Assembly: GCA_958296295.1 (NCBI GenBank)
Contig: OY282460.1
Location: forward strand, 930,001-994,000
Reading direction: 5' to 3'
DNA: 64,000 bases
From: an uncultured Pseudomonadales bacterium
GTDB taxonomy: Bacteria; Pseudomonadota; Gammaproteobacteria; Pseudomonadales; Azotimanducaceae
In this document: positions 38,879-51,453 of the stretch, piece after piece
Layout: the number at the start of each line of letters is the position of its first letter
Numbering within the stretch: the first letter of the stretch is position 1
Notes under the pieces: generated by a model
What the model was told of the DNA's origin: nothing
Database searches by the model: none
The model's input: only the letters and a program-made list of their open reading frames with translations
Made by a program: the position numbers and the translations under genes

Positions 38879-39056
38879 GGACGCTGCGCAAAGCACCTGC
38901 CGCAAAAAGCCGGAGCAGCGGGGCCGCAGCAACTGCAGCAAGCTATGCCGTTACGGTCGACGTGTCGAATGAGGTCCCAGTGCTCGGCCACATCCGCAGC
39001 CAAGAGTAGGCGTGGTTTTCAAGTGCGACTCCACCGAGTCGCGGAGCAAAGTTGAG

Positions 39057-40715
39057 GTGCAGATCGTCATTCCCATGTCCGGCTTCGGAGAACGCTTTCG
39101 GCGAGCGGGCTACAAGACGCCTAAACCGTTAATCGAGATCGAAGGCAAGCCCATCATCGCGCATGTGGTGGACATGTTTCCCGGCGAGAGCGACCACGTC
39201 TTCATCTGCAACCAGGAGCACCTCGACACGCCTGCTTATCGGATGGAACAGACGCTGCAGGCGTACTGCCCGACGGGACGCATCGTGGGCATTCCACCGC
39301 ATTCGCTCGGTCCGGTACACGCGGTGCGCCAAGCCGAGCAGCTGCTTGATCCAGACCAGCCGGTCGTCGTCAACTACTGCGATTTCTCCTGCTACTGGAA
39401 TTGGCATGATTTCCGACGCTTCGTGCGGGAGACTGGCTGCACAGGGGCGATTCCCGCGTACAGAGGTTTCCATCCCCATTCGCTGGGGAACACCCACTAT
39501 GCCTACTTGCGCGAGACTGCAGGTTGGGTTGAGGACATCCAGGAAAAGAAGCCCTACACCGACAATCGTATGCAGGAGTTCGCCTCCAGCGGTACCTACT
39601 ACTTCGCCTCGGCCCGCATCATGCTCGCCGCCTTCCAGGCTGTCGTGGAGCAAGACCTGCGGGTAGGTGGGGAGTACTACGTCAGCCTAGCCTACAAACC
39701 GCTACTCGCAGAGCGTAGGCCAGTCGCCGTGTATCCGTTGCAGCACTTCATGCAATGGGGAACGCCCGAGGATTTCGCCGAATACCGAACTTGGTCGCGA
39801 ATGTTCCGAAGCCTCGTGGCAACACCGGAAAGCGAGCCCCCAAAGGATCGGCCGAAGGGATCGATAGTCCTGCCCTTGGCCGGAGTCGGCAAGCGCTTCC
39901 GCGATGCCGGCTACGCGCAGCCCAAACCGCTGATCCCTGTGTCCGGGAAGCCGATGGTGGTGCAGGCGATCCTAGCGTTGCCCCCTGCCGACCGCCACGC
40001 CTTCGTGTTGAGGGCGGATATGCCGGGGGCCAGTACGACCGCGGCCGAGCTGACACGTCTCTATCCGCAGGCAGTTGTCGAGATGGTTCCCCAAGCCACC
40101 AGCGGGCAGGCCTGCACAGCATTGCTCGGGCTTGACGCACTAGAACGCGGCTTGGGTGACAGCGCGACGGGCCCGGTAACCTTCGGCGCCTGCGACCATG
40201 GCGTCCTCTACGACCACCGGAGCTGGTGGCATTTGGTCGAAGACGACGAAGTGGACGTGATCGTCTGGGGTGTCCGCGGCCATGCCAACGCGCTGCGCCA
40301 CCCGGAGATGTTCGGCTGGATCGAAGCCGACCAAGGACGGATAACAGGCATCTCGGTCAAGAAGCCGCTGAGCTCGCCGGCCACGGACCCAATCGTCATC
40401 GGTACCTTCACTTTCGGCCAAGCCGACGACTTCCGGCGTTGCGTCAAGCGGTTGCTCAAGCACGACGATCGGGTGGGCGGCGAGTTCTATATCGATTCCT
40501 GCGTCAATCACGCCCTGGCCTTGGGGCTGCGCTGCCGCCTGTTCGAGGTTGACGACTATTTGAGCTGGGGGACGCCGGACGACCTTAAGACGTTCGAGTA
40601 TTGGCAGTCGTGCTTTCACAAGTGGCCGAGCCATCCCTATCGGCTGGAGCACGACTCCCGGGTCCGGCCGGGGCGGTCGCAGAATTTGATGCAGACATGG
40701 GATTCATGTCCGTGA
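39057..40715 (+). CDS. Tandem double nucleotidyltransferase (sugar-phosphate activating)
   Basis: The protein contains two complete NTP-transferase domains. The first starts VQIVIPMSGFGERFRRAGYK with TPKPL; the second, about residue 268, starts IVLPLAGVGKRFRDAGYAQP with KPL. Each has the G-x-G-x-R-F signature for the nucleotide and ends with a GGE-(Y/F)-Y-(V/I) strand, where the Glu/Asp binds metal. Such enzymes couple a sugar or polyol phosphate to an NMP. Start GTG 39057 gives the usual M-x-I-V-I-P opening and has GGAG upstream; a frame from 39012 exists but adds unconserved residues. It is the first gene of the coupled cluster and overlaps the next by 10 bp. Fusion of two such domains is unusual. 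Confidence 0.78.
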   Translation: MQIVIPMSGFGERFRRAGYKTPKPLIEIEGKPIIAHVVDMFPGESDHVFICNQEHLDTPAYRMEQTLQAYCPTGRIVGIPPHSLGPVHAVRQAEQLLDPDQPVVVNYCDFSCYWNWHDFRRFVRETGCTGAIPAYRGFHPHSLGNTHYAYLRETAGWVEDIQEKKPYTDNRMQEFASSGTYYFASARIMLAAFQAVVEQDLRVGGEYYVSLAYKPLLAERRPVAVYPLQHFMQWGTPEDFAEYRTWSRMFRSLVATPESEPPKDRPKGSIVLPLAGVGKRFRDAGYAQPKPLIPVSGKPMVVQAILALPPADRHAFVLRADMPGASTTAAELTRLYPQAVVEMVPQATSGQACTALLGLDALERGLGDSATGPVTFGACDHGVLYDHRSWWHLVEDDEVDVIVWGVRGHANALRHPEMFGWIEADQGRITGISVKKPLSSPATDPIVIGTFTFGQADDFRRCVKRLLKHDDRVGGEFYIDSCVNHALALGLRCRLFEVDDYLSWGTPDDLKTFEYWQSCFHKWPSHPYRLEHDSRVRPGRSQNLMQTWDSCP

Positions 40716-41497
40716 GACCATTCGGATTGCTCTCCCGGTTGGAGTTTTTGCAGAACTGGGCTTCGGCGCTCATTGCTGGCCTGAATCCCGCGGTCATCCA
40801 CAACTTGGCGAAGTACTACGCGATCAAGAAGGTCTGCTACCTGTCCGCAATCGAAGACACCGAAGGCGACTACCTCGAATTCGGCGTGTTCACGGGCAGC
40901 TCGTTTTGCCATGCGCTGCGCTGTCTGAGGAAGCTGTCCAACATCCATCCGAGTGTCGCCACGACGAAGTGCTATGGTTTCGACTCGTTCGCAGGCTTCG
41001 GGGCGTTGGAGGAAGAAGATCAACATCCCTTTTACACCAACGAGAATTTCAGCACGAGCCTGCCGCAGGTCGAACGCCGCGTTCGCAGGGCCGCGGGCCA
41101 CATGTCGTTTCGATTGATCCCCGGTTTCTTTCGCGAGTCACTGCAGCGCGGCGCAAAACAGCATGGCATCGAGAAGGCCCGCATCATTTTCATAGACAGC
41201 GACACCTTCGCTAGTACCCGTCTTGCCCTTGCCTTCTGCCACCCGGCACTCCAGCAGGGCACTTTCATCATGCTGGACGACTACTTCTCCTATCGTGGTC
41301 GAGAAGACAGAGGAGTCCGGGGTGCTTTTGCCGAATTCGTCAGGAAGGCGGGCGTTGAGACGAGGCAGGTGTTCACATACGGCATGGGCGGCGTCGTGCT
41401 GGTCGTTTCGGAAGGTGTAGAAGGTATAGAAGGTATAGAAGGTATAGAAGGTATAGAAGGTGCAGCAGGTATAGAAGGTGTAGAAGGTGCGGACTGA
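40706..41497 (+). CDS. TylF/macrocin O-methyltransferase-like protein
   Basis: 263 residues from ATG 40706, ten bases before the previous stop ends. The SAM-binding strand is YLEFGVFTGSSF; KCYGFDSFAGFG follows, and ARIIFIDSDTFAST and IMLDDYF carry the metal-binding acids of the TylF family. Family members methylate sugar hydroxyls in natural products and polysaccharides. The final 27 residues are the low-complexity string coded by the 9-bp repeat (EGIEGIEG...), which is not part of the fold. An alternative start at ATG 40697 is possible. The next gene's start codon lies within the last repeat unit. Confidence 0.75.
   Translation: MSVRPFGLLSRLEFLQNWASALIAGLNPAVIHNLAKYYAIKKVCYLSAIEDTEGDYLEFGVFTGSSFCHALRCLRKLSNIHPSVATTKCYGFDSFAGFGALEEEDQHPFYTNENFSTSLPQVERRVRRAAGHMSFRLIPGFFRESLQRGAKQHGIEKARIIFIDSDTFASTRLALAFCHPALQQGTFIMLDDYFSYRGREDRGVRGAFAEFVRKAGVETRQVFTYGMGGVVLVVSEGVEGIEGIEGIEGIEGAAGIEGVEGAD
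41414..41494 (+). repeat. Nine imperfect 9-bp tandem repeats at a gene junction
   Basis: The units are GGTATAGAA (five copies), GGTGTAGAA (two), GGTGCAGCA and a final GGTGCGGAC. They code the Gly-Ile-Glu tail of the methyltransferase. Each unit includes AGAAGG across its junction, which resembles a Shine-Dalgarno, and the last unit contains the GTG start (41487) of the next gene. Copy-number change keeps the upstream frame but shifts the distance of nothing else. Confidence 0.85.
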
Positions 41498-42194
41498 GCT
41501 TTCTCTGGTCATCCCCTGCTACAACGAGGCAGCCAATCTTCCTTTGCTGCTGGAGCGTTGCGGCGCGCTGGTGGTCGAGCCAGGCGTAGAGGTCATTCTG
41601 GTGGACAACGGCTCGACGGACGAGACGCCGGGCGTGCTGCGCGAGCTGCTGCCGAAAGTTCACGGCTGCCGCAGCGTACACGTGCCAGTCAATCGGGGTT
41701 ACGGCTTCGGGGTTCTGGCGGGGTTGTCAGCCGCCGACGGTGACATCTTGGGCTGGACGCACGCTGACATGCAGGCGGACCCGCAAGACGCTCTGCACGG
41801 GCTGGCGCTGTTCCGACACGCGGGGCACGACATCTTTGTCAAGGGCCGCCGTCGTGGTCGGCCGCTGGCGGACGCCATGTTCACCGCTGGCATGAGCCTA
41901 TTTGAAACTCTGCTGCTGACCCGGCGGATGCGGGACATAAACGCGCAGCCGACGCTGTTCAGCCGCGACTTCTACCGCATGTGGCAGTCGCCGCCCAACG
42001 ACTTTTCGCTCGATCTGTTTGCCTACTACCACGCTTTGGTCGCCGGCCTTGATGTGCAGCGCTTCCCGGTGCGCTTCGGCGAACGCGCTCACGGCGTTTC
42101 GCACTGGAACGTCAACTGGATGGCCAAGTGGAAGTTCATCCGCCGTACCGTGGCCTACAGCCTGCAACTGAAAAGGACCCTGAAGTCGCCATGA
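41487..42194 (+). CDS. GT2-family glycosyltransferase
   Basis: 235 residues from GTG 41487, overlapping the previous stop by 11 bases. The N-terminal fold is ELSLVIPCYNEAANLPLLLE; the metal-binding strand is GWTHADMQADP, with VILVDNGSTDETPG before it. This is a small GT-A glycosyltransferase of the DPM/DolP-type group, which uses a nucleotide sugar. There is no long membrane domain, but the C-terminus NWMAKWKFIRRTVAYSLQLK is amphipathic and could bind the membrane. Its ribosome-binding sequence comes from the 9-bp repeat. It overlaps the following gene as ATGA. Confidence 0.85.
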   Translation: MRTELSLVIPCYNEAANLPLLLERCGALVVEPGVEVILVDNGSTDETPGVLRELLPKVHGCRSVHVPVNRGYGFGVLAGLSAADGDILGWTHADMQADPQDALHGLALFRHAGHDIFVKGRRRGRPLADAMFTAGMSLFETLLLTRRMRDINAQPTLFSRDFYRMWQSPPNDFSLDLFAYYHALVAGLDVQRFPVRFGERAHGVSHWNVNWMAKWKFIRRTVAYSLQLKRTLKSP

Positions 42195-42817
42195 AGCTCA
42201 TCGCGCATCGGCGCAACACGGTGCCAGAGCTTGCCGCCACGCCACGAGAATACGGGGTCGAAATCGACTTGCGCACTGCCGGCGACTCGCTCGTGCTTCA
42301 CCACGACGCGTTCGCCGCCGGCACTGATTTCGGGCGCTGGCTCGACGCCTATCGGCACGGCACGTTGATTCTCAACGTCAAGGAAGACGGGCTGGAGCCT
42401 TCGGTAACCGCCCTGCTGCGGGAGCGGGGCATTGAGGACTACTTCTTCTTGGATCAGGCGTTCCCCACGTTGGTGCGCTGCGCCAAGGCAGGCGAGCGGC
42501 GTTGCGCGGTGCGCGTGTCGGAGTACGAATCGATCGCGACCGCCCTGACCTTGGCGGGGCGAATCGATTGGATTTGGGTGGATTGCTTCACCCGCTTCCC
42601 GCTGACCTCGCAGGAAGCGCACCAGCTCAGGTCGGCCGGGTTCAAGCTCTGCATCGTCTCGCCGGAGCTGCAAGGGCGAGACGCGGCAGTCGAAATCCCC
42701 GCACTCGCGAAACTGTTGCGGGCAAGAAACATTCGTCCCGCCGCGGCCTGCACGAAGCACCCGGACTTGTGGGAGCGCGAAGCCAGGAATCCGCGCCGCG
42801 GAAACGGCGCGGTATGA
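42191..42817 (+). CDS. GDPD-like phosphodiesterase-fold protein
   Basis: 208 residues from ATG 42191 (ATGA overlap). The sequence opens MKLIAHRRNT and continues GVEIDLRTAGDSLVLHHDAF; the H-R, E-x-D and H-D residues match the glycerophosphodiester phosphodiesterase barrel. Later strands are TLILNVKEDGLEPSVTALLR, YFFLDQ and WIWVDCFTRFPL. Members cleave glycerophosphodiesters, but small cluster-encoded relatives may act on other phosphodiesters or a polysaccharide backbone. The whole barrel is shorter than usual. It is coupled on both sides, so it belongs to the pathway. Confidence 0.7.
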   Translation: MKLIAHRRNTVPELAATPREYGVEIDLRTAGDSLVLHHDAFAAGTDFGRWLDAYRHGTLILNVKEDGLEPSVTALLRERGIEDYFFLDQAFPTLVRCAKAGERRCAVRVSEYESIATALTLAGRIDWIWVDCFTRFPLTSQEAHQLRSAGFKLCIVSPELQGRDAAVEIPALAKLLRARNIRPAAACTKHPDLWEREARNPRRGNGAV

Positions 42818-44883
42818 GGCTCTTTCGCATACGGCCGCATACGGCTTCGCATCCGCTGTTCTTCGTCGGCGCGGCCGTGCGCATCGGGCTGGTGCTCGCT
42901 TTGGTTCCCGTCGCCCTGGACGATTGGTACGCGCCCTTCATGCAGGCGAGCGTTAGCCAGCTTGATTTCGACCCTTGGGGCAGTTGGCTGGCCGCCGGGG
43001 GTGACCCTCTCGCTTTTCCCTACGGCTACGTGATGTGGCTGATCTTCCTGCCGTCGGCTTGGCTGGCGGAGGCGCTGGCCTTGCCCGCGCAGTACGGATA
43101 CTGGTTGACGCTGGTAGCGGTAGACGTTGGCATGCTGTTCAGCCTGCGCCGGCTGGTGCCCAATATGCCGACGCAGCGGCTCCTCGTCTGGTACTGGCTG
43201 TCGCCCTTCGTCCTGCTCGCCACCTATGGGCTCGGGCTCAACGACCTCGTCCCGATACTGCTGCTGACCGTTGCCCTTGTACTGGTGCGCCAGCCGGCCA
43301 CAAAGGCGCACAGCGCTTGCGCTGGGGCCGTCTGCGCGCTGGCGGTTTCCGCCAAGCTCAGCATGGTCATCTGCATCCCTTTCTTCCTCGTCTACCTGCA
43401 CAACGGGAAGTTGCTGCGCCCGCACCTGCCGGCGTTTCTGGCGGGATTGTCGTTGAGTGTCCTCTGCGTCATCGGGCCGTCTCTGTTGTCGCCGGGTCAC
43501 ATACACATGCTGTGGGACAACCCGCAGATGCAGAACATCTACCAGCTCATGTTCACTTTGAACAACAGCCTGTCGCTCTACATCGTCCCGGCCCTCTACG
43601 TCCTCACGCTCTACTCCGTGTGGGCCATAGGACGCCTCAACTTCGATCTGTTTCTCGCCGGCACGGGCGTTTCGTTCCTGCTGGTGACGCTGTTCGCATC
43701 CACCTCCCTTGGCTGGTTCATCTGGAACATGCCCTTCCTGTTGTTCTGCTTGTCCATCGGTCGCCCATCCACCCGGCTGCTGGTGGGAGTGTTTGTCGTT
43801 TGCTTTTTGCTCAGCGCTTTTGTCTCCACCCCCTTCCCTCTAGCAGATGGCGCGCGATTCGATGTCGGCGGTATTGTGCCAGCGCAACTGTCTTCTCTGT
43901 TTCATACCGCCTTCGTCGTGACCGGCGTCGTTCTCGCCCTCCACACTTGGCGGCACTTCGTCAACCGCAACGACTTCTACCGGCTTAGTCGCAAACCGTT
44001 TGTGCTCGGCATTGCCGGGGACTCCGGCTCGGGTAAGAGCACCTTGGCTGACGCCCTGACCAAGCTGCTCGGCGCACATTCCGTTGTGGAGGTGTCTGGC
44101 GACAACTACCATCGCTGGGACCGACACGATGGAATTTGGAAGGCCCTGACCCATCTGAACCCAGCGGCCAACGACTTGGGCCGCCTCGGCAACGATTTGG
44201 TGGCCATGACCAACCGATCGCCCATCTCATCGCCCAAATACGACCATGCGATCGGGAAATTGAGCGAAGCCGTCTCTATCTCGAGCAACGATTTCATCAT
44301 TGTCACCGGATTGCACGCCTTCTACTCGTCGGCCTTGAGGCCGCTGTACGACATGCAGATCTACCTCGACATGGATGAACCGCTGCGCCGCCATTTCAGG
44401 CATGTACGGGATACCGAGCAGCGGGGCCATTCGCCACAGGCGGTGGCGGAAAGTCAGCGTCGCCGCGAGGAAGACGCCCGCCGCTTCGTTCATCCGCAGC
44501 TAGCCCATGCCGATCTGGTCTTCTCTCTGCGACCAGCACGGCCGGAAGCGCTCAACGCTTCGGTCGCTACGCCCGCCGGCCCCCTACACTTGATTCTGAA
44601 GGTTAGCGGGACGCGCACCGTGAACGACATCTCTCTGATTCACGCCCTGATCGGCTTGTGCAACATGCATGTGGATACGACGCCTGATGACGACGAGAAG
44701 ATGCACATGACCATCGAGGGCGAAGTCTCGGCCGCTGACATCGCACTGGTGGCCGAGGTGACGTGCAGCCGGGTTCTGGCGCTCCTGGATGGGCGGCCGC
44801 AGTGGCAGGATGGCGTCACGGGCTTGATGCAGGTCATCACCCTGTGTCACATTGATCACGCTCTGGCGAGACGCGTCATATGA
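42814..44883 (+). CDS. Fusion of a GT-C-like membrane domain and a P-loop kinase
   Basis: 689 residues from ATG 42814 (ATGA overlap). The first 390 form a membrane domain with about ten helices. It starts HPLFFVGAAVRIGLVLALVP, with an acidic loop LDFDPWGSWLAAGGDPLAF, as in GT-C glycosyltransferases. At about 398 a uridine-kinase/phosphoribulokinase-like domain begins: VLGIAGDSGSGKSTLADALT is the Walker A, VSGDNYHRWDRHD is the metal and substrate segment, and DEPLRRHFRHVRDTEQRGHS is the lid. About 80 more residues follow with no recognised motif. A kinase attached to a polytopic membrane domain is rare. It may phosphorylate a precursor next to the membrane-bound acceptor. Confidence 0.78.
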   Translation: MRLFRIRPHTASHPLFFVGAAVRIGLVLALVPVALDDWYAPFMQASVSQLDFDPWGSWLAAGGDPLAFPYGYVMWLIFLPSAWLAEALALPAQYGYWLTLVAVDVGMLFSLRRLVPNMPTQRLLVWYWLSPFVLLATYGLGLNDLVPILLLTVALVLVRQPATKAHSACAGAVCALAVSAKLSMVICIPFFLVYLHNGKLLRPHLPAFLAGLSLSVLCVIGPSLLSPGHIHMLWDNPQMQNIYQLMFTLNNSLSLYIVPALYVLTLYSVWAIGRLNFDLFLAGTGVSFLLVTLFASTSLGWFIWNMPFLLFCLSIGRPSTRLLVGVFVVCFLLSAFVSTPFPLADGARFDVGGIVPAQLSSLFHTAFVVTGVVLALHTWRHFVNRNDFYRLSRKPFVLGIAGDSGSGKSTLADALTKLLGAHSVVEVSGDNYHRWDRHDGIWKALTHLNPAANDLGRLGNDLVAMTNRSPISSPKYDHAIGKLSEAVSISSNDFIIVTGLHAFYSSALRPLYDMQIYLDMDEPLRRHFRHVRDTEQRGHSPQAVAESQRRREEDARRFVHPQLAHADLVFSLRPARPEALNASVATPAGPLHLILKVSGTRTVNDISLIHALIGLCNMHVDTTPDDDEKMHMTIEGEVSAADIALVAEVTCSRVLALLDGRPQWQDGVTGLMQVITLCHIDHALARRVI

Positions 44884-45650
44884 AGCTCAATCACCCCGAC
44901 AGGTTCCTGACCCGGCCGGACGCGGTCCTGTTCGATCTGGACAACACGTTGTATGCCTATGATCCGGCCCACGCTGTCGCTTGGCAGGCGGTGAAGAACA
45001 AGCTGTCCGATAGCTTGTCCTTCACGCCACAACGCTCGGACCATCTGTTCGAGGAAGCCAGAGGCCAAATCAAAGCTCGACTCGGCCGCTCGGCATCGTC
45101 CCACAGCCGCCTGCTCTATTTTCAGCGCATGATGGAGATCGAGGGCTTGGGCAGTAGAGCCCTGCTGGCGCTCGACCTCGAACAGACCTACTGGCGAACC
45201 TTTCTTAGGAGCGCGGTGCTGTTCGACGGCGTGAGAGAACTGCTAGACGACTTGCGCCTAGCCAACATCCCGGCGGCGCTCGTGACCGACCTGACCGCAC
45301 AAATCCAGTTCAGAAAACTCGTGTATTGGCAACTGGACGACCGCTTCTCCGCCATAGTCACCAGCGAGGAGGCTGGCGTCGACAAGCCGCATGGCACACC
45401 GTTCCGGCTCGTCCGGGAGAAAGTGCAATCCGCCGACGGCGTCCTGTGGATGATTGGCGATGACGCCGAGACCGATATTCGGGGAGCACGAGACAGCCTC
45501 GGCGCGGTAACGCTGCAAAAAGTGCATCCCGGCGTCCAGAAAGGGCGCGACGCCGCCGCGCCCGACGCCTGGTTCACGAGCTTCTTGGCGCTACGCCAAT
45601 CCATGCGGCGCATGGGTTTCACCTCTGGCGTGCCGGGCGGCGTGCGATGA
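44880..45650 (+). CDS. HAD-family phosphatase
   Basis: 256 residues from ATG 44880 (ATGA overlap). HAD motif I is DAVLFDLDNTLYAYDP (Asp19 nucleophile, Asp21); motif II is in AALVTDLTAQ; a Lys in GVDKPHGTPF is motif III; GDDAETDIRGARDSLG is motif IV. Residues between I and II form an alpha-helical cap. The fold is that of small-molecule phosphatases that act on sugar or polyol phosphates. In this operon it could remove a phosphate from an aldolase product or a pathway intermediate. The C-terminus overlaps the aldolase gene as ATGA. Confidence 0.82.
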   Translation: MKLNHPDRFLTRPDAVLFDLDNTLYAYDPAHAVAWQAVKNKLSDSLSFTPQRSDHLFEEARGQIKARLGRSASSHSRLLYFQRMMEIEGLGSRALLALDLEQTYWRTFLRSAVLFDGVRELLDDLRLANIPAALVTDLTAQIQFRKLVYWQLDDRFSAIVTSEEAGVDKPHGTPFRLVREKVQSADGVLWMIGDDAETDIRGARDSLGAVTLQKVHPGVQKGRDAAAPDAWFTSFLALRQSMRRMGFTSGVPGGVR

Positions 45651-46666
45651 GGCATGACATCCGCAACTACTGCGCGCGCGTCGGGCAGGAACCGCTGTTG
45701 GTGCAAGCTGCGGGGGGCAATGTGTCATGGAAGGAGAGCGGGACGTTGTGGATCAAGGCATCCGGGGCTTGGCTGGCCGATGCCGGCAAGGACGACATCT
45801 TTGTCCCTGTGGCCCTGGACGCGCTACGGGCTGCCTTGGCGGCGGGGCCATCTCACCTTCGGTTGCCCGAGGCCACCGAAGGCCATGCCCTGCGGCCTTC
45901 GATCGAGACCTTCATGCACGTTGTCATGCCGCAGCGGATCGTGTTTCATCTCCACGCGATAGAGGCGTTGGCGGTCTTGGTGCGGGCCGACGCGCAGGAG
46001 ACATTGCGCGCCCGGCTTCAAGACCGCTTTCACTGGGAGTGGGTGCAATACCGGCAGCCCGGCGCTCGGCTCGCCCGATCCGTCGCGGTCGTTCTGGGCC
46101 GCTCGCCGGACACCAACGTCGTCTTGCTGCAGAACCACGGCATCCTGGTGGGCGGCGACACGATCGGCGAAATCGATCGGCTCGTCAAGGCCCTCCTCTT
46201 GGCCCTGAAGCAGGACATCGCTTCCACCGAGTCGGGTCCGCAGCAAATCCACAAGGCCCCCAACACACTGCCCATTGGATCGTTTGAGTATGTCGCCATT
46301 GAAGACGCGCGGATTCAAAACCTGGTTCACACGCCGGAGCTGTACCGAAGGCTGTCTGAGGCTTGGGCGCTCTATCCGGATCATGTCGTCTTTCTCGGAG
46401 AGAGCGCCCCGGCATTCGAGAACCGGTGCGAGGCGTCGAGATATGGCAGGAGCCGACGGCCGCCGCTGCTCTTCATCCGCGGCGAAGGTGTCTTCGCGAA
46501 GCCGGATTTCAGCCAAGCCCAACGAGCGCAACTCGTCTGCTACTACGAGATTCTGACCAGGCAGAAACCCCAAGACGTCCTAGTCGAACTGACCAAGGAG
46601 GAAATCCACGATCTGCTTCATTGGGAAGCGGAACGGTACCGCGTAAACGCCAGGCCCCACGAATGA
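45647..46666 (+). CDS. Class II aldolase/adducin-family protein
   Basis: 339 residues from ATG 45647 (ATGA overlap). The family marks are QAAGGNVSWK near the start, the metal-binding HLHAIEA (His101 and His103), and LLQNHGILVGG with the third His (164). Glu87 in IETFMH is the likely catalytic acid. These are zinc-dependent aldolases or epimerases of sugar phosphates such as fuculose- and ribulose-phosphate. A C-terminal extension of about 140 residues follows the domain and has no known motif. In context it probably makes or isomerises the sugar phosphate that the first gene activates. Confidence 0.8.
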   Translation: MRHDIRNYCARVGQEPLLVQAAGGNVSWKESGTLWIKASGAWLADAGKDDIFVPVALDALRAALAAGPSHLRLPEATEGHALRPSIETFMHVVMPQRIVFHLHAIEALAVLVRADAQETLRARLQDRFHWEWVQYRQPGARLARSVAVVLGRSPDTNVVLLQNHGILVGGDTIGEIDRLVKALLLALKQDIASTESGPQQIHKAPNTLPIGSFEYVAIEDARIQNLVHTPELYRRLSEAWALYPDHVVFLGESAPAFENRCEASRYGRSRRPPLLFIRGEGVFAKPDFSQAQRAQLVCYYEILTRQKPQDVLVELTKEEIHDLLHWEAERYRVNARPHE

Positions 46667-48678
46667 AGCCAAGCATTTCCAAATTGAACAATCGGATAAA
46701 GAAGCTCGACTGGCCGCCCGTTCTGAAGAGCGGACAAACGTACATCCGCATCGTCGACTCGCCGGCTACCGGCATAGTCATGTTGCTGTTGTTCTTTCTG
46801 GTGGCCTCGGCATGGATCGTCAATCTGAACAGCCGCTCCGTTAGTTCTCCGCACGACGGCGACGAATGGCATACGTTGGTTATTGGAACGCAATATCTCA
46901 GTCCGGTAGCTGAATCCGTGCCCAGCGCGCGCGTTGGCGAGACGAACCGATGGTTCGTCCGATTGCTCCATCCAGTGGGATTGTATTACATGAACAGCCA
47001 CATGGGCGGCGAACATTACGAGACCGGTTGGGACTACGCGGGTGGCTACTATCTGCGAGAGCACTTCCGGCAGATGGACGCGGTTCGTCACGATCCGAAC
47101 GTCCAAGATTATGTCTACTCTATGAGGGTCTCGTTCGGCGTTGTAGCCGTCTTTTCTTTCTGCATGGTCATTTGGGTACTGTTCCGCCGATTTGGTGCCG
47201 CCGCGTCGGCAACGTACGCAAGCCTCGTACTCGTGAATCCTATCGTGTTTTCGCAATTCGATGAATTCTATTCCGAGACCACGCTGTTCATCCTCTTCAA
47301 CACCGCCGCGTTTCTCTGTCTCCGTGCCCGACCGTCGACAACATACCTCCCTCTGGTGTTGTGGGGGTTGCTGTCCGCCGCGGCGTTGGCCACTAAGCTG
47401 ACGGGAGTCCTGATCGCCGTGCCGTTGTTCGTTCACGTGGTCGTCCACGCGCTGAGAAGTCGTCGCGACGTCGGGGTGGACGTCCTGATCTATCTCTTGT
47501 CTGCAGCTATAGCCTTTGGTGTCTTGAATATGTATTCGGAGTCCATATTCTCTCTTCTCAATGAGACCTTAGCTAACGTCTATCACTTTAAGACCGGACA
47601 CCTCGTGACCGCAGAGGGTGGTGTGCAGTTCATTCAATATATGCTCGATGATCTGGGTTACGTGCTGCCCATTTTGTTTGTGGTGAGCCTGCTGTGGCTT
47701 GCGAGGCGTCCAAGAATGCGCCTCGCGCCTATCTATATCCTCGGCCTGCTCCTCGTCGTCGTGAGCTGGAACTTGCTGAACTCCGCGGTCTATTCGAGCA
47801 GAAACATGGCATCTGTTTACGTCGCCATGAGCTTAGTCGTCGCTCTTGGCGCCGGCAGTATCGTCGAGAGCATTAGGTCGAAGCACAAGTACGTTGCCGC
47901 GGCGTGCTGCTGGCTGGTCGTCGCGCTGATGGCCAGCGAGCTCGTTCGCCATCAATACCAGATGCCGGCACTGGAAGACACGTTTTTCGAGAGGAACGTC
48001 GAGCAGATGAACACGTGCAGCACCATAGGAGCCGTCGGCTTGTCGAAACCGGCTCTCCCGGCGTTGTCCTTTAGCTGGGACGGCTACGTCACCGTTTTGG
48101 ACAGAGTTGAGGGCCCATTTAATATCTCAGAGAATCCCGGCGTATTCGATGAGTACGTCCAATACGACTGTCTGATTGTGCATCGGCAAGGACAAAGCAA
48201 GCAGATATCTAACTTCGTTGCACCGCGGCACTACCAACTGTCGGATCGAGTCGGAAACCTGTTTTTCTTCTCCCGCGAACCGAGGGATAAAACGGCCTCC
48301 GGAGGCGATCGGGTGTCGGGGCTGCTGCCTAGTGGCCGGCCCATCATCAGCTCCGACTGGGATGTGTATCTCGTTGAAAACAGCCTCATCTTCGCTAAGG
48401 ACGACCAGTGCAGCGCGGAGGCTGAACCACTGTTCTTCGTGCATTTGTACCCGGTTGACATTAACGACCTCCCCGGCCATCGCCAGCAGCACGGCTTCGG
48501 CGGCTTCAACTTTAGCCTTGATTCCACGAACGTCCTTCTCGACGGAGGAGTCTGCGTAGCGAAGGTGGAGCTGCCCGATTACGCCATCGCCGCGATCCGC
48601 ACCGGCCAGTTCACCGACGAGGGCCAGAACATCTGGGAGGGCAGCTTCGATGTTGTCGAATCGGCGGATGGCGGATGA
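46663..48678 (+). CDS. GT-C-type membrane protein with IRTGQF module
   Basis: 671 residues from ATG 46663 (ATGA overlap). The first helix is GIVMLLLFFLVASAWIV, and the following loop has SVSSPHDGDEWHTLVIGTQY, an acidic motif as in GT39-type GT-C enzymes. Ten or so helices follow, up to about 430. A soluble region comes next, and the last 110 residues form a module: SSDWDVYLVENSLIFAKDDQ, VDINDLPGHRQQHGFGGFNF and AIAAIRTGQFTDEG. The same module ends the product of 48881-50850 and is encoded alone at 50900-51340. Transfer of a sugar or polyol phosphate from a lipid donor is the likely role. Confidence 0.75.
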   Translation: MKPSISKLNNRIKKLDWPPVLKSGQTYIRIVDSPATGIVMLLLFFLVASAWIVNLNSRSVSSPHDGDEWHTLVIGTQYLSPVAESVPSARVGETNRWFVRLLHPVGLYYMNSHMGGEHYETGWDYAGGYYLREHFRQMDAVRHDPNVQDYVYSMRVSFGVVAVFSFCMVIWVLFRRFGAAASATYASLVLVNPIVFSQFDEFYSETTLFILFNTAAFLCLRARPSTTYLPLVLWGLLSAAALATKLTGVLIAVPLFVHVVVHALRSRRDVGVDVLIYLLSAAIAFGVLNMYSESIFSLLNETLANVYHFKTGHLVTAEGGVQFIQYMLDDLGYVLPILFVVSLLWLARRPRMRLAPIYILGLLLVVVSWNLLNSAVYSSRNMASVYVAMSLVVALGAGSIVESIRSKHKYVAAACCWLVVALMASELVRHQYQMPALEDTFFERNVEQMNTCSTIGAVGLSKPALPALSFSWDGYVTVLDRVEGPFNISENPGVFDEYVQYDCLIVHRQGQSKQISNFVAPRHYQLSDRVGNLFFFSREPRDKTASGGDRVSGLLPSGRPIISSDWDVYLVENSLIFAKDDQCSAEAEPLFFVHLYPVDINDLPGHRQQHGFGGFNFSLDSTNVLLDGGVCVAKVELPDYAIAAIRTGQFTDEGQNIWEGSFDVVESADGG

Positions 48679-48880: not shown

Positions 48881-50850
48881 ATGCAAGCGATAGGGATGTG
48901 CGCCGCGCTCCGGCGCATCGTCCGTTTCAGCCGCAACCTCAAGGCGTGTCTGTACTACGCCGCCTGTATCTGCCTGCTTGTCGCCGCGACCGGGCTGCGC
49001 TTCCACGACCTTTCCGAGAAGTCTCTACGGTTTGACGAAGCGGTAACGGCCAATATGTCCAGAGGCGCACTCTCGGAAGTCGTCCGCGATATCCGTTGCT
49101 GTAACAGCTTGCCGATCCTGCATCCCCTGGTCCTGCACGCGGTGCAGAAAGTCGAGAGCACGATCTTGAGCGTTCGAATCGTGCCGGCGACGGCCAGCGT
49201 TCTGACCATCGCCTTGATGCTCTTCTGGCTGCCGCGCCTCGGCGTCGCCCGGAGCGCCGCGTTTCTGGCGGCGCTGCTCGCCACGCTTTCCGTTGAAGCG
49301 ATCCGGCACGCCCAGGATGCGCGGGAATACTCCATTGACGCGCTGCTGGCCCTGCTCATGGTGGCCGGGCTGCTACGGTATCTGCGAGACGGCAGGACGG
49401 CCCTGCTCTGCGTCTTCCTGTTCCTCGCGCCGCTTCTCCAGTACGGCTTGGTCCTGTTCGGCGCCGCCGTCATTGGCGCCGCCATCGTGGTCCCCCCCCC
49501 CCCCGCGTCTCCGCACAGGAAAGGCGGCGCCGGATTGGGGACTGGCTGAAGAAGCGCCTGGACTTGGCCGCGCCCTGTGGGTTCTTCCTAGCCGGGGGTG
49601 CCTTGAGCTACTTGACGACTTTGCGCCATCAATGGCAGGAAGGGGGGTTCGCCTCGGGTAGCTATTTGTCGGCGTACTACTATCAGGGAAAATTCGACGC
49701 GTACTCGATCTTCGAGTTTTCGATTGACGGGATTTGGAGCTTGTTGAAGTATCATTTGCCGGACGTTGTTGCGATTGCGGCGCTTCCCGCATTCGCGATC
49801 CTCTTGGTCGCGGCGTTCCTCAGAAAATTTCAAGACGGCGCCATCGTAGTCTTATTCTCGTTTTGCATTGCGGTTTCCGTCGGCGCTGCCGTGCTGGGCC
49901 TATATCCGCTTGGGGGCATTCGCCAAGGCATCTATCTGGGTCCGATTGTTTTCCTAGCGGTCGGTTTGGCGTTTCATTCAGGAGCTGACGCGCTGGCGTC
50001 GGCCGCACGGCAGGCATGGCTGGGGCTCCCATTGATCGCGTTATCCGCAAGCGCAATAGTGCTTGTCGGAGAAGATGCCATACAGCGGACAAATTTGTAC
50101 CGGCCCCATGACAAAGGCGAGGAGATTGTTTCCGTACTACAGGAGCGCGCACAAGAAGATGATGTTTTGTACTATCACAGAGATATGCGGGAATCTATAG
50201 AATTCCATGGAAAACAAAATCGAGGAAGGTTGATGCTTGATGGAAAGGTGGGTTGTTGGTATGGAGAAGAACTATGTTTACAAGAAATGATCGACGAGAT
50301 CGCCCCGTGGATTGGAAGAAGTAGACTCTGGTTGGTTTCCGAATACCCTCGGCCCTATCTGGGAATGCTGCAAACGATGGCCCCGAACGTTCTGGTTGAG
50401 CACGTCGTTTCTGGTGGAACACCCAATCTCTATCTGATTGAAGATGCGAAGTCCTTGATTCAAATCGCCGCCGCTACTGATATGTTTCGAGACATAAAGC
50501 CAATTCTACCTCGCGAGCCGTTGATCCGCTCCACCTTCGACGTCTATCGCCGCGGGAACACGCTGGTCTATTTCAAGGAGCCGTGCGGCCCAGAGTACAT
50601 GCGGGCAACCTTCTTCCTGCACTACCAGCCCGTTCACGGGGACGACCTGCCGGCTGATCGCCAACAACACGGCTTCGACGGCGTCCACTTCCACATCTTC
50701 AACATTCCCCAAGGGCTAGTCGAGCAATGCGTCGCTGGGCAAGAGTTGCCCGACTACGCCATCGCCCTCATCCGCACCGGCCAGTTCCTCGGCAACGAGG
50801 ACGGTTCGTACGCAAACCTCTGGGTAGAGGAACTTCGCTCCGATGAGTAG
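48881..50850 (+). CDS. GT-C-type glycosyltransferase with IRTGQF module, frame broken at a poly-C tract
   Basis: Two frames form one gene. Frame 1 starts at ATG 48881 (GGGGAG upstream) and contains the GT39-like first loop LSEKSLRFDEAVTANMSRGA and several helices; it ends at 49549. Frame 2, open from the poly-C tract through about 49507-50850, continues with IGDWLKKRLDLAAPCGFFLA, more helices and the module RSTFDVYRRGNTLVYFKEPC, DLPADRQQHGFDGVHFH and ALIRTGQF. The join lies at a run of 13 C. One more C (14) or two fewer (11) would restore a single frame of about 655 residues. As sequenced, the product is cut after about 222 residues, so the gene is either phase-off or misread. Confidence 0.8.
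49492..49504 (+). repeat. Homopolymer of 13 C inside a GT-C gene
   Basis: A run of 13 cytosines is far longer than expected in coding sequence and sits exactly where the reading frame changes. It is typical of slipped-strand phase-variable contingency loci, and also a common place for sequencing errors. Confidence 0.85.
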
Positions 50851-50899: not shown

Positions 50900-51340
50900 T
50901 CACCGGATGCCTGCTCGTCGCCGAAATAGGTACCGCGTCCAAAACGACACGTTGACGCATTTGCCGACCGCACGGCATCGCGCACACTTGCGGTAGGCCA
51001 CCGTGTTCTCGCCGGCATAGACGTCGAAGACGGAGCGGGCCGCCGGTTCGCCGGACGCGACGGACTCGTCGTCCGTCCGCCGGGACGGTTCGCCTTCCGC
51101 CGCGCCGATCGGGAACGCGGCCATCCAGACGAGGTCGCCTTCGGGGTTGAACTGCCCGGTACGGATGCGGGCGACGGGATAGTCGGGGAGCGTCCGCTCC
51201 CCGACGCACTGGCCGCCAAAGGCCAGGGCGGCGGTGTTCCCGTAATGGAAATGCATGTTGTCGAAGCCGTGCCGCCGGCGATCGGCCGGCAGGTCCTCCA
51301 CGTCTTCCGGGACGACTTGCAGGAAGAACTCCGCTTGCAC
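50900..51340 (-). CDS. Stand-alone IRTGQF-module protein
   Basis: 146 residues from GTG 51340 with GGAGG seven bases upstream. VQAEFFLQVVPEDVEDLPAD starts the module, RRRHGFDNMHFHYGN and PVARIRTGQFNPEG finish it, and a partial second copy follows (ARSVFDVYAGENTVAYRKCA, with Cys pairs). In the two GT-C proteins the VYRRGNTLVYFKEPC-like part comes before DLPADRQQHGF. Here it comes after, so the order is permuted or two modules are joined. No signal peptide. It converges on the cluster with about 50 bp from the stop of the last GT-C gene. Function unknown; binding of a glycan is one possibility. Confidence 0.6.
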   Translation of the reverse strand: MQAEFFLQVVPEDVEDLPADRRRHGFDNMHFHYGNTAALAFGGQCVGERTLPDYPVARIRTGQFNPEGDLVWMAAFPIGAAEGEPSRRTDDESVASGEPAARSVFDVYAGENTVAYRKCARCRAVGKCVNVSFWTRYLFRRRAGIR

Positions 51341-51453
51341 GTCGCCGCCTCCGATGAGCCCGCGTCGCGGGAGATAAAGGTACAAGAATTGGCACAAACA
51401 GCGTCCCGTTGAACAAAAAAGAGCATTATAATCAATAGCATAAATCATGGTAG

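Follow-up and report, generated by a model that had tools for sequence, protein, structure and literature searches.

Most known cases of homopolymer phase variation come from cultured pathogens and commensals that are associated with animals. In Neisseria, the protein-glycosylation genes pglA, pglE, pglG, pglH and pglI contain repeat tracts that are toggled by slipped-strand mispairing, and the surface glycans are thereby diversified (PMC11130364). The contingency genes of Campylobacter, such as Cj1295, carry intragenic and intergenic G/C mononucleotide tracts and include glycan-modification genes (PMC8355987, PMC3068675); phase variation by slippage is known from both genera (PMC11130364, PMC8355987, PMC11868660). 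The gene described here, which is located in a window of 64,000 nucleotides from an uncultured Pseudomonadales bacterium, resembles the Neisseria pgl system in the presence of repeat tracts of a phase-variable type in glycosyltransferase genes (PMC11130364) and the Campylobacter genes in the presence of G/C mononucleotide tracts in glycan-related genes (PMC8355987, PMC3068675). It is distinguished from the former by its enzyme families, lineage and habitat and by the fact that switching has been demonstrated in Neisseria, whereas we infer it for the gene in the window. Campylobacter, in contrast, belongs to a different phylum, and our tracts reside in GC-rich genomes of several phyla, where one of them recurs at a single codon of a GT-C-like family. 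Our literature search found no report of homopolymer phase variation for these lineages or for sponge symbionts. The mechanism itself is known; novel are the lineages concerned and the fact that a single codon is affected repeatedly in different phyla.

The tract interrupts a gene that starts with an ATG at 48881 and extends to 50850, and it is the only C or G run of at least 8 bases in the window, whose GC content amounts to 60-69%. The preliminary description had noted a run of 13 C at the point where the reading frame changes and had calculated that 14 or 11 C would provide one continuous frame and 13 C a truncated product. This arithmetic was confirmed in all its parts: the run comprises exactly 13 C and is found precisely where the frame shifts, the N-terminal open reading frame of this allele terminates at a stop 45 bases past the tract after 222 residues, and setting the tract to 14 C fuses both halves into a single frame of 656 residues, with in-frame lengths n = 2 mod 3 (11, 14). 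Apart from the tract, the frame is open across the 656 codons. The C-run replaces a proline codon in the loop following the motif LFGAAVIGAA.

Table 1. Features of the window at and around the C-tract (positions refer to the 64,000-nucleotide stretch).
Feature	Position	Strand	Basis or remark
C13 homopolymer, proposed slipped-strand switch	49492..49504	+	Pro codons, loop between predicted helices (low-confidence model of homologue L106)
N-terminal part of GT-C-like gene; 222-aa truncated product at C13	48881..49549	+	ORF list; weak PMT_2 match
C-terminal part of GT-C-like gene, other frame; joined to N-terminal part at 2 mod 3	49507..50850	+	ORF list, continuous homologues
Upstream glycan/sugar-nucleotide-type cluster: NTP transferase, methyltransferase, GT2, membrane/uridine-kinase-type fusion, HAD, class II aldolase	39012..46666	+	Pfam
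Upstream multi-membrane protein gene, tractless; same C-terminal domain at 48343-48666	46363..48678	+	
C-terminal ~107-aa Ig/FNIII-like beta-sandwich domain	50527..50847	+	model pLDDT 88.7

Both halves are parts of one protein, because tractless homologues, carrying VAPRVS or a similar sequence at the site, read continuously through it. These include L056, L057, L060 and two paralogues of the same genome (at C1:1839275 and C1:1820549, with 76% and 55% identity), besides others. The nearest relative of the window copy is L056, which is 86% identical (83% over the C-terminal part), and the identity of L057 amounts to 77%; a further copy in the same genome, at C1:1798832, is decayed and contains two stops. 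The assignment of both halves to a single family, for which an origin in different families had been considered as counterevidence, is thus borne out by intact homologues spanning both, and two separate genes were dismissed as an explanation on the same grounds. A role of the tract as promoter spacer was equally discarded, in light of its location deep within the gene. In a homologue of the same genus (L065, G013:C1:297698-301456), an inserted segment of roughly 1.7 kb, perhaps an insertion element, splits the sequence at about residue 244. In a sample of 369 genomes from the class of the window, the A2 profile yielded no additional carriers.

The protein had initially been described as a GT-C glycosyltransferase. 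Its multi-membrane topology and its affiliation with a single family stand, whereas the match to Pfam PMT_2 remains below threshold (E = 0.0013, 19.4 bits at a cut-off of 26.1) and the fold was not confirmed, and we thus refer to it as GT-C-like, a designation that the topology and the sub-threshold matches weakly suggest. PMT_2 is also matched by 2 of 9 homologues. The structure model of the homologue L106 is of low confidence (pLDDT 53, pTM 0.34) and a fold search with it against the PDB was without match at E ≤ 0.001; a sequence search for relatives with solved structure found none. With the PMT_2/PMT-type members of the GT-C superfamily (PF13231, PF02366) the protein shares the multi-membrane topology, an acidic DE motif in the first loop and weak profile matches, in contrast to which it falls below the curated cut-offs and contains an unnamed Ig-like domain at its C-terminus. 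This domain of about 107 residues has neither a Pfam match nor a fold match in the PDB at E ≤ 0.001. About 20 copies are found in the genome of the window, mostly within C1:1734148-1841308, and it is common to several phyla, where it is also attached to GT-C-like proteins and a GSDH/cytochrome lipoprotein (L104). A remnant of the domain in opposite orientation, at 50987-51441 of the minus strand, forms imperfect inverted repeats with the two plus-strand copies of the window. The proposed location of the gene at a glycan cluster was verified by the genes preceding it (Table 1).

A poly-C tract at the same codon is present in four genomes, the window included, which represent different species and not strains. 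While the window copy with 13 C is off, a Dehalococcoidia homologue (L058, OY282441) contains 15 C and is out of frame, with a tractless paralogue next to it, a homologue from Candidatus Entotheonella (L106, OY282375) contains 13 C, which is in frame there, and a copy in G728 (L249/L190), a genome belonging to the same class as the Dehalococcoidia MAG, contains 21 C and is out of frame. The named relatives are single-chromosome MAGs of one record series, assigned to Candidatus Entotheonella, Pseudomonadales, Dehalococcoidia and Chloroflexota. The comparison of tract lengths between relatives, which had been suggested as a check, has thus revealed no fixed in-frame length and many homologues devoid of a tract. 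In three further homologues (L101, L182 and L186), poly-G runs of 13, 9 and 12 are located at the start of the gene. Two GT2 genes of Entotheonella (L106, L111) contain a C12 at their start and are on. The one in L106 is found directly upstream of the tract-bearing GT-C-like gene, so that in this region (L106:1677-4716) a C12 right after ATG-TA and a C13 follow each other, both in frame.

Exact homopolymer counts are error-prone in long-read assemblies, whose consensus is weakest above about 10 bases, and since a single extra C restores the frame, the true run might comprise 14 (or 11) C, in which case the gene would always be ON and the frameshift an assembly error. We consider this improbable, as a miscount accounts for the count only, but not for the fact that four genomes share a C-run at one codon alongside tractless sisters, and as the lengths of 13, 15 and 21 differ by far more than one. 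The count of 13 could still be off by one, although a slip-prone tract would remain regardless, and the objection thus mainly touches the current state of the gene.

In a tree of 24 sequences, well-supported branches require the tract to have been gained or lost at least four times, and the window copy, L058 and the G728 copy are each paired with a sequence that lacks it. The topology would be compatible with four gains or with fewer gains combined with losses. It is conceivable that a stretch of prolines would instead have been selected as a protein feature, either as linker or for translation pausing, with the frame maintained by programmed frameshifting at the C-run. The tract is located between helices in the low-confidence model and would encode a proline run in all four carriers, whereas most homologues lack a proline run at this site. 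Moreover, CCC accounts for 24-39% of proline codons and CCG would be expected too, yet the tracts consist of pure C, and the poly-G tracts found elsewhere encode glycine, which together renders this explanation highly improbable.

A census of C-runs on both strands of the 4.33-Mb genome of the window counts six C8, three C9, one C10, no C11 or C12 and then single runs of C13, C16 and C21 and two of C14. A first-order Markov model derived from the window predicts about 207 runs of at least 8 and 0.29 runs of at least 13 bases genome-wide, compared to the five observed in the latter class. Runs of intermediate length (8-12) are thus rarer, and very long runs more frequent, than predicted. The C21 comes just after ATG GAC AGC AAT, at the 5' end of a gene assigned to GT2 by Pfam (E 1e-18), and is out of frame by one; it is probably a second switch in this genome. 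The start of this gene (L032:6266-6296, G000:C1:2052265) reads ATGGACAGCAAT-C9-T-C21. The C16 precedes the gene for a secreted PPC-domain protein, one C14 is located upstream of an open reading frame that, by its sequence, is HPr-kinase-like and the other C14 near a gene read as GT8-type and sulfotransferase-like. These three tracts may be of promoter type or neutral.

The genome of the window contains 5 runs of at least 11 bases, its congener G013, which is closed, contains 2, and ten further genomes carrying the family contain between 8 and 42; the counts for fragmented relatives are unreliable since many runs are found at contig ends. The placement of 141 tracts from twelve genomes was determined by an analysis of spanning open reading frames, which were called mechanically and might be wrong in single cases, with random positions in the same loci as null; a codon score in short windows for the coding flanks of tracts had proven too noisy and was replaced by this approach. 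Of these tracts, 11 are located in the first 15 codons of a long open reading frame (2.6 expected, p=6e-5) and 16 at codons 16-50 (6.4 expected, p=7e-4). Tracts are thus enriched about threefold to fourfold at the 5' ends of genes. Gene interiors are depleted (52 compared to 84.5 expected) and no long open reading frame extends across 56 of the 141 tracts (about 40%), from which it follows that tracts also arise without an evident switch, a circumstance that counts against our interpretation.

Pfam searches on 50 tract-bearing open reading frames have identified four GT2, GT8, a bacterial sugar transferase, a PMT-type protein, two sulfatases, a sulfotransferase, a carbamoyltransferase, three LRR, two Calx-beta, a reprolysin-type protein, a TonB plug, GSDH, PD40 propellers and a few metabolic enzymes. 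Glycosyltransferases, sulfatases, leucine-rich-repeat and secreted proteins recur in this set, which describes a recurrence and not a tested enrichment. That some of the tracts are found in genes of metabolism (enoyl-CoA hydratase, SDR, acyl-CoA dehydrogenase) speaks against a switch. Shared tract positions were observed in a second GT-C-like family of 800 residues, whose members from two genomes are 72% identical and carry poly-G runs of 11 and 14, both in frame, at a matching N-terminal position, in a family of GSDH lipoproteins from three genomes (67-86% identical) and in a membrane protein from two genomes (84% identical). Pairs whose runs share a position immediately ahead of the signal peptide were found for LRR proteins of a Chloroflexota genome (L144 and L146, OY282448, C-runs of 11 and 23) and for other large secreted proteins (L119 and L123, OY282430, C-runs of 15 and 11).

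These patterns bear on a neutral origin, according to which the genomes gather long C-runs by slippage and one of them has disabled a redundant member of an expanded family. The two paralogues and the decayed copy in the same genome attest to this redundancy, and many long tracts are located outside genes. However, decay would hardly be reconciled with a frame that is otherwise open over 656 codons, with the same codon being hit in four lineages, including one copy in frame, and with the 5'-end enrichment and the recurring position in homologous genes of other families, so that we regard this origin as unlikely.

We thus favor, with a probability of about three in four, the C13 as a contingency tract that switches the GT-C-like gene by slippage. 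The frame logic, the presence of tracts of various lengths at one and the same codon in several genomes and comparable tracts in further glycosyltransferase genes all support the pattern of a phase-variable surface-glycan gene that had been recognized at the outset. In the proposed mechanism, slipped-strand mispairing during replication would add or remove C's from the run; lengths of 2 mod 3 (11, 14) would lead to the full membrane glycosyltransferase of 656 residues, and at all other lengths translation would end after about 220 residues and the enzyme would be lost, with the stored genome representing the OFF state. In a symbiont-type bacterium, switching would affect a single step of an exported or surface glycan, and relatives of the gene in other phyla would use the same device. 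Switching in vivo, the loss of function in the OFF state, the effect on the glycan and a sponge as host are features that we infer.

On a wider scale, it is possible, though we rate it somewhat below even odds, that uncultivated symbionts of several phyla in one habitat keep a common and partly horizontally shared set of poly-C and poly-G contingency genes, comprising GT-C-like and GT2 transferases, sulfatases and leucine-rich-repeat or other secreted proteins, whose tracts would evolve repeatedly at the same codon, and that this set underlies a community-wide phase variation toward one kind of host. The habitat is probably that of sponges, as we presume from the Entotheonella carrier. The occurrence of one device at one codon in uncultivated bacteria of different phyla would suggest that bacteria also switch their surface glycans for the sake of symbiosis, of escape from phages or of recognition by an invertebrate host. 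Genes that appear frameshifted in such assemblies may be OFF alleles rather than errors or pseudogenes.
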